Part shown: positions 37,930 through 42,094 of the stretch, piece after piece
How the letters are laid out: each line of letters starts with the position of its first letter
How positions within the stretch are numbered: the stretch's first letter is position 1
From: Candidatus Angelobacter sp. Gp1-AA117
GTDB lineage: Bacteria; Acidobacteriota; Terriglobia; Terriglobales; Acidobacteriaceae
DNA: 64,000 nt
Reading direction: 5' to 3'
NCBI GenBank assembly: GCA_003223515.1
Contig: QHVI01000076.1
Location: forward strand, 1 to 64,000
The notes under the pieces: generated by a model
Told to the model about the DNA's origin: nothing
The model's input: the letters and a program-made list of their open reading frames with translations, nothing else
Database searches by the model: none
Position numbers and translations under genes: made by a program

Positions 37930-38172
37930 CTACTTTTGTTTCTGCGGTGGGGGGCTGTTTGATTTGAGACCTTCACGGATACCTTCTGAAACGGCCTTGC
38001 CTTGTTCGCGCGCCTTTTCAGCGCCCTGCTTGATCTCCTTGGCCGCTTCTTTGCTTTCCTGTTTGACCTGGGATGCCGCCTTTGCGGCGTCTTCTCGGGT
38101 CTTGGCGGTGTCCTGATTGCAGCCCAAAGCAAAGGCAAACGTGAGGAGCAGAATGAGAGAGAGCAGTTTCAT
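37930..38172 (-). CDS. Small Ala/Lys/Glu-rich lipoprotein
   Basis: 80 residues. The leader MKLLSLILLLTFAFALGCNQ has a lipobox (ALGC) with the lipidated cysteine at residue 18. The rest is one long charged helix (DAAKAASQVKQESKEAAKEI) and a proline-rich tail (SPPPQKQK). Repeats of an 11-like period (AAKAASQVKQESK / AAKEIKQGAEKAR) recall LEA-like or Lpp-like coiled helices. Possible envelope stress or cell-wall-linked role. The preceding 37671-37929 gap shows no gene. Confidence 0.7.
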   Translation of the reverse strand: MKLLSLILLLTFAFALGCNQDTAKTREDAAKAASQVKQESKEAAKEIKQGAEKAREQGKAVSEGIREGLKSNSPPPQKQK

Positions 38173-38277: not shown

Positions 38278-38802
38278 TCATTTGGTGGGCTCCATCTGCA
38301 GGGCGTCGTTGAAGCGATTGAAATAATTGAACAGTCCGATAGAAGCCAGCAACTCGATGACTTCGCCTTCATCGAAGTGCTTGCGCAGCTCGGCAAAAAG
38401 CGCGTCGTCAATAGTATGAGAATCGCTGGTCATGCGTTCGGCCAGGCGCAGAGCCGCTTTTTCTTTGTCAGTGAAATCGGTACGGCTTTCGAAGTGATGC
38501 AGGTTGTTGATCTGATCTTCTGACCAGCCCAGCCGTCTTGCCAAGACGGTGTGAGAGGCCAGTCAATACTCGCAACGGTTGATCTGTGATGTCCTGACGA
38601 TCACCAGTTCCTTCAGCCTGGCAGGAACGGTGCCGGTTTCCATGACGGCACGGAAATGGGCAATCATGGTCTTCAGGATTTCAGGCCGGTGGGCCACGGT
38701 GCGGAACATGTTGGGAATGTTGCCGCGCTGCTTCATGAAGTGGTCATAGATCGCGCCGACTTCAGGATCAACGGAAGAACGATCAAGACGTGAGATTCTC
38801 AT
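38278..38802 (-). CDS. AhpD-like alkylhydroperoxidase, candidate selenoprotein (C-x-x-U)
   Basis: Reading through one in-frame TGA (38563-38565) gives a complete 174-residue carboxymuconolactone-decarboxylase/AhpD-family protein. Before it: MRISRLDRSSVDPEVGAIYD...LVIVRTSQINRCEY. After it: LASHTVLARRLGWSEDQINN to the C-terminus MEPTK. The TGA is residue 80, exactly the second cysteine of the catalytic CxxC (C77-E-Y-U80) with the proton-relay His at 84. AhpD-like proteins with Sec at this site are among the known bacterial selenoprotein families. Directly behind the TGA is a SECIS-like hairpin (38521-38565). The alternative is a nonsense mutation that split the gene, but both halves are otherwise intact and in frame. 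The likely role is peroxide or thiol redox chemistry. It starts 7 bases after the upstream unknown gene. Confidence 0.8.
38521..38565 (-). promoter_or_regulatory. Candidate bacterial SECIS element
   Basis: On the mRNA strand a two-part hairpin begins at the UGA itself. The lower stem is 9 bp, UGACUGGCC (38565-38557) with GGCUGGUCA (38529-38521), including two G-U pairs. An asymmetric internal loop follows (UCUCACA against GUC read 3' side). The upper stem CCGUCUU/AAGACGG is 7 bp and perfect, closing a GGC loop (or 6 bp with loop UGGCA). Twenty bases separate the UGA from the loop guanines. Bacterial SECIS elements need a stem-loop with a G early in the apical loop about 16-37 bases after UGA. 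This fits. Confidence 0.7.
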
Positions 38803-38809
38803 AATATTG

Positions 38810-39205
38810 CTACAGGTTCTTCAACTGGTCTATGACTTTTTCGACCTCACCTTTCGCAGCGTTATTAACAATGTCAAACAGGCGTTCTACCGCCGTCTCC
38901 AAGCGTGACTTCGTTACATTCTCCACTTGGGGAAATGGAAAAGAGCTGGTTTGCTCAATTTTGAGAACATCATTGCCGTTTGGCTGTCGAACCACAAAAT
39001 GGGCCCAAGTCTTCGTTTTGACGAACGGTAGAAAAGAATTAGACAGAGCAAATATCAGTTCGACACGATTAGGAAGGGTTGCTTCATAGGTGGTAGTCGA
39101 CTTATTCCAAAGCAGTTTGCCTTGAAGAGTCTTTTCCGTAACAGTATTTACTAACTCAATCTGCTTAGGGTCGTCCTCAAAAAAAGTCAGAAAAGCATTT
39201 GCCAT
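38810..39205 (-). CDS. Hypothetical protein
   Basis: 131 residues, no signal peptide. It has an alternating strand-rich first part (YEATLPNRVELIFALSNSFL; WAHFVVRQPNGNDVLKIEQT) and a helical C-terminus (RLETAVERLFDIVNNAAKGEVE). Four bases separate it from the upstream unknown gene and seven from the AhpD-like gene, so all are likely co-transcribed. Codon use is more A/T-rich than the STAS/RsbW pair. No family recognised. Confidence 0.55.
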   Translation of the reverse strand: MANAFLTFFEDDPKQIELVNTVTEKTLQGKLLWNKSTTTYEATLPNRVELIFALSNSFLPFVKTKTWAHFVVRQPNGNDVLKIEQTSSFPFPQVENVTKSRLETAVERLFDIVNNAAKGEVEKVIDQLKNL

Positions 39206-39209
39206 TGGA

Positions 39210-39719
39210 TCAGCTCCGGAATCGCAGTCGTCCGCTCACTTTGCCCATTAATTGGCTTACAAAATCCAGGGTTTCCGATACACGCCGTACCTTCTCATTA
39301 TCTACCAAGGTATCATCACGGAGGAATACCAGAATTCGTTTTAATTGTCTCGTTATAACAGCAATCTCTCCATGCTGTAATTCACGTAATTCCACCCAAG
39401 ATGTTTCCGCCGCTGATAAGTCAATACTTAGTTCACCAGCAATACGCAAGACCGTTATAAGGTCTTGCGTTTCGTTGGCTTCTCGCAGTGATTGCAGCCG
39501 TCGAATAAATTGAGTGATTTCTTCGGCGGCGATCCTAATCAGCAACTCTTTCCTTGCTGCCGCAGCAGCCTGAAGGGCAGTAAAAGCCACCCGTTTAGCA
39601 CTTCTCGCATATAGAATACTGATCACAACTCCGATTGATGAAATTAGAATTCCAATCAGAGAAAGAACATTGCCGATTTCGAATACCCAGTGCCACTCTA
39701 TTTCGGCGAATAGTTGCAC
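39210..39719 (-). CDS. Hypothetical single-span membrane protein
   Basis: 169 residues from a GTG at 39719 with GGGAG six bases upstream. The frame extends to an ATG at 39803, but that would overlap the STAS gene by 50 bases, so the GTG is preferred. One clear membrane helix follows the start (IGNVLSLIGILISSIGVVIS, about 14-33), then a long amphipathic region (AAAAARKELLIRIAAEEITQF; LRIAGELSIDLSAAETSW) likely helical and cytoplasmic. It may be a signalling or scaffold protein. No family recognised. It is 34 bases downstream of the STAS gene. Confidence 0.5.
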   Translation of the reverse strand: MQLFAEIEWHWVFEIGNVLSLIGILISSIGVVISILYARSAKRVAFTALQAAAAARKELLIRIAAEEITQFIRRLQSLREANETQDLITVLRIAGELSIDLSAAETSWVELRELQHGEIAVITRQLKRILVFLRDDTLVDNEKVRRVSETLDFVSQLMGKVSGRLRFRS

Positions 39720-39753
39720 GAATGTCTCCCAAGGCGCTGCAAGAGTCCATCGG

Positions 39754-40101
39754 TTACTTGGTAAACGCCTGGATAGCGGCTGCTTCGTCATCCTTAATAT
39801 CAAACACGGTATAGAGCTTGGTGATCTGCAGCAGGTCGTGGACTTTCTTGGTGAGCTTGAGCAGCTTCAGTTCGCCGCCTTTGTTGCGGACGGTGGTGAA
39901 GGCGCTGACCAGCTCTCCAATTCCGGAGCTGTCAATATAAGTGACATTTTCCAGGTTGAGCAGGATTTTGGTGTTTCCCTTGCTGACCAGGTCCTGAACT
40001 GTGTCCCGCAATACAACGCTGCCCTCGCCGAGGGTAATACGACCGCTCAGGTCAACAATGGTGACGTCACCTACCTGCCGGTTGCTAGCTTTCATTGTCA
40101 C
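39754..40101 (-). CDS. STAS-domain anti-sigma-factor antagonist
   Basis: 115 residues, one STAS domain of the SpoIIAA/RsbV type. The phosphorylation-site motif is NVTYIDSSGIGELV, with serine in the DSSG core (about residues 58-61). Unphosphorylated, such proteins bind the RsbW/SpoIIAB kinase and free its sigma factor. The gene overlaps the RsbW-type gene by four bases, its expected partner. No sigma factor gene is adjacent. Confidence 0.9.
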   Translation of the reverse strand: MTMKASNRQVGDVTIVDLSGRITLGEGSVVLRDTVQDLVSKGNTKILLNLENVTYIDSSGIGELVSAFTTVRNKGGELKLLKLTKKVHDLLQITKLYTVFDIKDDEAAAIQAFTK

Positions 40102-40553
40102 TTTAATTCCTCCTTGGCATTCGCGGCCTCCCGGCCTGTATGTTTCACTAATGTAATCTCGGTTCCCGGATGCAAATTCCTGATCGTGACCTCATCCATA
40201 AAGGAGCGGATAAGGAATATTCCCCGGCCTGACTGCTTCATCAGGTTCTCCGGCGCCAGCGGATCAGGAAGGCTCGCCTCATCCAGCCCTTTCCCCTGAT
40301 CGGTGATGGTGATCACCAGCGCCTGCGGGGTTATCTCATAGGCTACAAAGAACTTCTTATGGGGATCATAGGCATTGCCGTGCAGTACGGCATTTACTGC
40401 GGCTTCCCTGACCGCCATGGCAATGTGGTGCTGCTGGTCTTCCCCAAACCCCCCGTGAGCAGCGATCTCAAAGGCCTTGCGTTCGGCCATGTTGACGCTT
40501 TCCAGCGTTGAGTCCAGCGAATACGTCACCCGGTTTGTCGCGCGACTGTTCAC
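40098..40553 (-). CDS. RsbW/SpoIIAB-type ATP-binding anti-sigma or serine kinase
   Basis: 151 residues with the GHKL-type ATPase core. The N box is MAVREAAVNAVLHGNAYD (about 46-63), the G1 box is ITDQGKGLD (about 82-90) and the G2-like box is SGRGIFLIRSFMDEV (about 106-120). Family members phosphorylate STAS partners and bind sigma factors. It pairs with the overlapping STAS gene. A PP2C-type phosphatase that could complete the switch occurs at 48931-49920, though not adjacent. An IS1-like transposon sits about 87 bases upstream of this start and may change its promoter. Confidence 0.88.
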   Translation of the reverse strand: MNSRATNRVTYSLDSTLESVNMAERKAFEIAAHGGFGEDQQHHIAMAVREAAVNAVLHGNAYDPHKKFFVAYEITPQALVITITDQGKGLDEASLPDPLAPENLMKQSGRGIFLIRSFMDEVTIRNLHPGTEITLVKHTGREAANAKEELK

Positions 40554-41082: not shown

Positions 41083-41110
41083 CAGCCCACCTGTGAGGTG
41101 GGCTGTTTTA
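41083..41110 (+). terminator. Rho-independent terminator
   Basis: Perfect 9-bp stem CAGCCCACC-tgtga-GGTGGGCTG followed by TTTTA on the plus strand. It ends the passenger gene at 40785-41063 and separates it from the convergent transposase gene. Confidence 0.85.
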
Positions 41111-42058
41111 TGCACCTATCAGCAATTCCCGCAGAGTCCATATACGGCTTTCCAGTCCTGCTTCCATCGCTGGCGTAACCCTCAATGATCTGTGAACACG
41201 GCAGAAGTTGTAATAAGCGAAGTGCAGAGCGCAGGCCAGTTTCAGATTATCCAGCTTCTTTGAGAATGCGTTTGTGAGTCTGGTAAATCTCCTGATGGCC
41301 ATCCTCATCGTGAGATTTTGCCGCTCAACATAACTGGTGGAAATATGCCGTGGGTCTGGCCTGCCGTCACGAATTTTTACTATTGCCTCTATCATCGGTG
41401 AAGGCGAATAGCGTCCGGCAGCGTCATGCTGGCCATGATCGCCGTATATCTTTACGAGTTGCGCGAAATCAGCACGACCAGCAAACACGTTTTCTACTCC
41501 GCGCTCATAAAAGTGGAAACCGTCTGTTGTGAGTTGAAACCGATGCTCAAGGGCAAGGCATGAATCAAGATTCTCTAAAAATCCGTAAGTTGTGGCGCGG
41601 TCACGCTTGCCTACTGTGAAAGCAGGAATCAATTTTGTGTCAGCATCAATCGCCACAAAAACCCATGCATCACCAAATTCTGTTGGGTCATCGGGCTGTA
41701 AATGACGTGCTTTTTTAGCTACGAAAGTCCAAATCTCATCGGCCTGGATTTTCTGGCAGCGCAGATCGCGCATCTTGGAATCCATCAACTTCACGCACCT
41801 TTCACCAGCGACAACCAACAGGCGAATGATTGTGTCCCGGTGCAGGCCAGTAATGCGCTCTGTGCTGCGAATGCTGGTTCCTTCGAGCAGGAGTTGAATT
41901 GCCAGCAGAGCTTTATCTTCGGGAACGGTCATTCTGCCAAACAAGCGCTCATGTTCTTCAGTGTAGGTTTTTCCGCATTGAGGGCAGCGAAACCGTTTCA
42001 GGCCATTGCGGTGCTTTCCAAAACTCCGACATTCGATGCTGCATGTCTGGCAATTCAT
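41108..42058 (-). CDS. IS1-family-like transposase
   Basis: 316 residues from ATG 42058 (MNCQTCSIECRSFGKHRNG). The N-terminal zinc ribbon has two Cys pairs (CQTC and CPQC at about 33-36), then a helix-turn-helix (STERITGLHRDTIIRLL). The DDE-like core shows ADEIWTFVAKK, FVAIDADTKLIPAF, LTTDGFHFY and the conserved C-terminal block YVERQNLTMRMAIRRFTRLT followed by LHFAYYNFCRVHRSL. This is the IS1-type transposase found fused with a zinc ribbon in many soil bacteria. It is expressed from a -35/-10 promoter that carries a palindrome (42066-42094), which suggests repression. Confidence 0.9.
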   Translation of the reverse strand: MNCQTCSIECRSFGKHRNGLKRFRCPQCGKTYTEEHERLFGRMTVPEDKALLAIQLLLEGTSIRSTERITGLHRDTIIRLLVVAGERCVKLMDSKMRDLRCQKIQADEIWTFVAKKARHLQPDDPTEFGDAWVFVAIDADTKLIPAFTVGKRDRATTYGFLENLDSCLALEHRFQLTTDGFHFYERGVENVFAGRADFAQLVKIYGDHGQHDAAGRYSPSPMIEAIVKIRDGRPDPRHISTSYVERQNLTMRMAIRRFTRLTNAFSKKLDNLKLACALHFAYYNFCRVHRSLRVTPAMEAGLESRIWTLRELLIGA

Positions 42059-42065
42059 GAGTAAA

Positions 42066-42094
42066 GAATAACAGCAAGCGCTTGCTGTTGTCAA
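42066..42094 (-). promoter_or_regulatory. Transposase promoter with palindromic operator
   Basis: On the minus strand TTGACA (42094-42089) is followed after 17 or 18 bases by TTATTC/TATTCT (near 42066-42071), about 10 bases before the transposase ATG. The spacer is the perfect 18-bp palindrome ACAGCAAGCGCTTGCTGT (42071-42088). A bound repressor would block RNA polymerase. A second copy of the core lies at 44361-44372. Confidence 0.65.

Follow-up and report, generated by a model that had tools for sequence, protein, structure and literature searches.

An AhpD-like gene of the Acidobacteriota with a conserved in-frame UGA, a predicted selenoprotein gene near STAS and RsbW-like genes

AhpD-like selenoproteins with a CxxU motif (COG2128) have been on record since the 2006 survey of Zhang et al. 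(PMC1794560), which also gives four selenoproteins from three families for the Acidobacteriota. A total of 299 AhpD-like selenoprotein sequences were reported in the GOS (ocean) survey of 2008 (PMC2398784), and a review of 2026 includes CxxU selenoproteins of the TIGR01926 type (PMC13188914). The gene described below belongs to this kind of AhpD-like selenoprotein, known for about 20 years. It is located in a window of 64,000 nucleotides, the whole stretch of DNA that was analyzed. The genome measures 6.48 Mb, and the window is its contig C86; the named relatives are Acidobacteriota (Terriglobia, Acidobacteriaceae). Judged from the sequence and its relatives, the internal UGA is very probably read as selenocysteine. 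The features of the locus are summarized in Table 1.

A preliminary description of this DNA, which gave no strand, had reported two AhpD/CMD halves in the same frame, split by one TGA in place of the second cysteine of a CxxC motif and followed by a relay histidine. This arrangement was borne out in all positions. On the minus strand, a single frame of 174 codons runs from 38802 to 38278, with the TGA at codon 80 (38565-38563) as its sole interruption; the first half comprises 79 amino acids (38802-38563) and the second half ends at 38278. The predicted protein carries the motif C77-E-Y-U80, then H84. A plus-strand reading of 38278-38802 was rejected, as it is broken by three UGA codons, lacks a start and does not resemble the family.

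Table 1. Features of the AhpD-like selenoprotein locus (positions within the window)
Feature	Position	Strand	Remarks
AhpD/CMD-family selenoprotein gene, predicted (TIGR01926, COG2128-type)	38278..38802	minus	174 codons + terminal TGA; Pfam CMD and TIGR01926 matches
TGA in frame at codon 80 (Sec predicted, CxxU motif)	38563..38565	minus	UGA in 25, Cys in 68 distinct relatives
Terminal TGA, codon 175 of the same gene	38278..38280	minus	alignments with nearly all homologues stop at residues 173-174
Apical SECIS-like hairpin CCGTCTT-GGC-AAGACGG	38533..38549	minus	7 bp, GGC loop
Whole SECIS-like element including lower stem from UGA (partly conserved)	38521..38565	minus	folding and relatives
Small lipoprotein-like gene, downstream	37930-38172	minus	conserved in nearest loci
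Pair of genes without Pfam match (131 and about 194-197 aa)	38810..39803	minus	between STAS and selenoprotein genes; also in the L111 relative
STAS-domain anti-sigma-factor antagonist-like gene	39754..40101	minus	conserved upstream of the gene in its UGA form
RsbW-like HATPase_c_2 serine kinase gene	40098..40553	minus	conserved upstream neighbour
IS1-type transposase gene near the locus	41108-42094	minus	

The read-through protein matches Pfam CMD with 69.6 bits (cut-off 23), the AhpD core domain TIGR00778 with 54.8 bits (cut-off 27.8) and the peroxidase-related enzyme model TIGR01926 with 96 bits (cut-off 81.8). All three matches span the TGA, and the COG2128-type assignment rests on the TIGR01926 score. 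Within the AhpD core, the CxxU pair C77/U80 is followed downstream by H84. An AlphaFold2 model (pLDDT 94.7) is all helical and places residue 80 near the start of the helix 78-90. Foldseek and profile searches led to the AhpD-like proteins PA0269, 2prr, 3c1l, 6k40 and Bmp8.

The earlier proposal of a selenoprotein had named two results that would speak against it: a genome without sel genes, or close relatives with a normal cysteine codon and relaxed selection on the second half. Neither was found, and the proposal is supported. The genome encodes a tRNA-Sec with UCA anticodon, G73 and CCA (71.9 bits), SelA (547 bits), SelB and SelD (372 bits). SelD is itself a predicted selenoprotein (L011 1402-2451, minus), with an in-frame UGA at its catalytic residue 17 (AAGUASKLSP).

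Further tRNA-Sec-like and AhpD-like genes were observed in the family. A second UCA tRNA-Sec-like gene of the same genome (contig C190:14815-14909, minus; L002 1497-1595; 57.9 bits) has an unchanged acceptor stem and G73-CCA, but its T stem is mismatched and its variable arm has decayed, and it is probably a degenerating copy; where the family genomes gave a hit, a second UCA tRNA-Sec was otherwise seen in G072 alone. Three family genomes contain tRNA-Sec-like genes with the anticodon UAU (L156 1442-1526, L157 1558-1642 and L158 1412-1495), which resemble the allo-tRNAs of Acidobacteria (PMC7609411). An AhpD-like paralogue that is more distant (about 32-39% identity) and in some genomes contains a UGA is positioned tail to tail with selB, within about 1.4 kb on the same contig in 22 family genomes (e.g., G147:C39, G004:C9, G053:C8 and G090:C184); in the search of the family genomes it was not seen in the genome of the window.

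Codon 80 was compared in 93 distinct relatives and is TGA in 25, TGC in 60 and TGT in 8, with no other codon. The close relatives carry UGA, and cysteine codons at exactly this position occur in more distant ones. C77 is kept in all UGA genes. Because position 77 is occupied by Thr in 48 Cys genes, residue 80 is the one of the pair that is never lost; E65, residue 80 and H84 do not vary in any of 44 sequences. In the UGA genes the pN/pS ratio is 0.33 for the part ahead of the UGA and 0.31 for the part past it, indicating purifying selection downstream; the values in the Cys genes are about the same. One UGA ortholog, at G078:C108:41398-41915, is split into two overlapping matches, possibly by a frameshift or an assembly error. 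In a sample of 150 genomes of the family, SelB or tRNA-Sec was found in all 23 genomes with a UGA ortholog and in 6 of 21 with a Cys ortholog (Fisher p = 2e-7, an optimistic value given that the genomes are related). In a tree calculated without column 80, a branch supported at 99% sets the 25 UGA genes and three Cys genes apart from the others, the three Cys genes being nested, with lower support, inside the UGA side; two changes between the UGA and Cys states are required. Most of the Cys genes may belong to a different orthologous lineage from the UGA genes, which colours comparisons between the two sets.

The 48 nt from codon 79 onward fold with a minimum free energy (MFE) of -21.1 kcal/mol (z = -3.26), and none of 200 shuffles was equally stable. 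The hairpin lies directly downstream of the UGA and carries G in its apical loop, as is asked of a SECIS element. The preliminary description had seen a two-part hairpin starting at the TGA. Its upper part stands: seven perfect base pairs enclose the GGC loop, with 20 nt from UGA to GG. The lower stem beginning at the UGA, given as 9 bp, has this length in the centroid structure and 10 bp in the MFE structure, but its outer pairs, including the UGA, are mostly unconserved. In an alignment of 24 UGA relatives, which omits L104, the sole UGA gene without the 7-bp stem, the upper stem is kept in 100% of the cells, four of its pairs showing compensatory changes on both sides, and the lower stem in only 69%. 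None of 500 shuffles reached the covariation score of the upper stem, nor did any slid version, and RNAalifold independently recovered the identical seven pairs. In the lower stem C7-G45, U8-G44 and C11-G41 are invariant, and the outer pairs, in which the UGA takes part, have mostly disappeared outside the window's own sequence. All seven upper pairs are formed in 24 of the 25 distinct UGA genes, and GGC stands at the loop position in 25 of 25; as the strongest control, the 68 distinct Cys genes reach at most five of the seven pairs. L104 lacks the 7-bp stem in the usual register and has a potential 5-bp stem, CTGCC/GGCAG. Synonymous codons beneath the hairpin are frozen in the UGA set only, with GCA at position 88 in 25 of 25 genes and TTG at position 87 in 22.

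The gene is part of a conserved locus. Flanking DNA is long enough for 24 UGA genes, and in 20 of these a STAS antagonist gene is found on the same strand within 700 nt upstream; both STAS and RsbW-like genes are present in the locus for 23 of 25. The close STAS arrangement occurs in only 2 of 45 Cys genes, and a third has a STAS gene further away; these Cys genes (L031, L033 and L035) are the three nested in the UGA clade. Since the nested Cys genes share the RsbW-STAS locus and two of their genomes (G046 and G132) retain SelB and tRNA-Sec, a replacement of selenocysteine by cysteine at one locus fits these data, the direction of the change being inferred. For four of the neighbouring genes tested, the small lipoprotein-like gene among them, Pfam provided no match and no functional clue; the L017 homologue of the latter bears a C-terminal extension. 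Searches of open-licence papers for any connection between selenoproteins and partner switches, and for selenoproteins of Koribacter or Solibacter, returned nothing relevant among the papers listed, and no description of the RsbW-STAS locus was found there. The shared, conserved locus raises the idea that the Sec enzyme senses redox state or selenium as the input to an RsbW/STAS partner switch in the Acidobacteriota. The idea is quite improbable as it stands; if it were true, the supply of selenium or peroxide would set a stress-type regulatory output.

A single stop that splits a gene may also signify a pseudogene or a sequencing error, in which case the UGA would be a nonsense mutation and the second half no longer functional. 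This explanation is hardly credible and was rejected: the UGA occupies the same codon in 25 distinct relatives from different assemblies, selection past the UGA equals that ahead of it, and the hairpin covaries. Decoding of UGA as another amino acid, by a change of the code or by a UCA tRNA charged with Cys or Ser, draws on the degenerate UCA tRNA-Sec-like gene of this genome and on the selC* tRNA-Cys(UCA) of other bacteria (PMC7609411), yet it is extremely unlikely. Because the gene itself terminates with UGA at codon 175, UGA is not reassigned throughout, and a code change was rejected; the evidence is for a codon with both meanings, selenocysteine and stop, inside one gene, and for recoding that is local and not genome-wide. 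The selC* type of decoding was rejected as well, since both UCA tRNAs have G73 in place of the U73 of selC* tRNA-Cys, and the genome holds the full set of SelA, SelB and SelD, the last with UGA at its own catalytic position.

The UGA and hairpin might instead act mainly as a selenium-dependent on/off switch, with a 79-aa peptide made without selenium and the choice of reading as the function. Recoding of UGA competes with termination in bacteria (PMC4513850), but the short product would lack residue 80 and H84, nothing suggests an activity of its own, and conservation falls on the full-length protein, which makes a switch very unlikely. The last alternative opposes the proposed chemistry only and leaves the Sec reading untouched: the selenoprotein could be another reductive enzyme of the AhpD fold and not a peroxidase, perhaps a reductive dehalogenase of the Bmp8 type. 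Both by structure and by sequence this debrominase is one of the best matches, but its identity to the window protein is only about 21-23% and the E65/C77/U80/H84 arrangement has AhpD spacing, so that a non-peroxidase is unlikely, with a small but appreciable chance.

Very probably, as far as sequence comparison can tell, the gene encodes one full-length AhpD-like selenoprotein, with UGA read as Sec; peroxidase chemistry of the AhpD type is likely for it. Its product would be an all-helical AhpD-like thiol/selenol oxidoreductase. SelB with Sec-tRNA-Sec(UCA) would bind the hairpin just past codon 80, and the UGA would then be decoded as selenocysteine to give C77-E-Y-U80. Homology with AhpD suggests that E65 and H84 form the proton relay. 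The U80 selenolate would be the nucleophile and attack a hydroperoxide or similar electrophile; C77 would resolve U80 as a selenenylsulfide, which an outside reductant would open.

With this reading, a gene prone to being split or called broken is corrected, and a clade of at least 25 predicted AhpD-like selenoproteins is documented in the Acidobacteriota. The paired Sec/Cys set, with three nested Cys forms at a shared locus, offers a test of what makes an enzyme retain or lose selenocysteine, and the RsbW-STAS neighbourhood is a testable lead on function.

The best-scoring curated NCBIfam (seleno)protein model is NF053654 (GroundWater_YciW). It is homologous to the window protein across nearly the full length, but the score of 89.5 bits is far below the equivalog cut-off of 310; membership among the YciW-related (seleno)proteins was therefore rejected and the protein is placed outside that curated subfamily. 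Because the best model reaches only this score, the earlier remark that ordinary annotation would split the gene or call it broken or a pseudogene is plausible. Membership in NF041238 (AhpD_rel_CFYUT) was also rejected (41.8 bits, cut-off 175). NF041047 (distant AhpD homologue / GSU3128 family) represents an AhpD-core CxxU selenoprotein like the one described here, but the model does not match the window protein and gives weak matches in only 2 of 44 relatives. AhpD of Mycobacterium tuberculosis (1gu9; 1lw1 is its H137F mutant) has E118/C130/C133/H137, the same spacing as E65/C77/U80/H84. Its Foldseek similarity to the window model is weak (E about 0.2, TM about 0.5), and its second CxxC residue is Cys where the window protein has the predicted Sec. 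From the published COG2128/TIGR01926 AhpD-like selenoproteins the gene differs in belonging to a subclade of the Acidobacteriota with a conserved RsbW-STAS locus, which is not described in the excerpts of those papers, and it shares with them the family model, the CxxU motif and the Cys homologues at the equal position.
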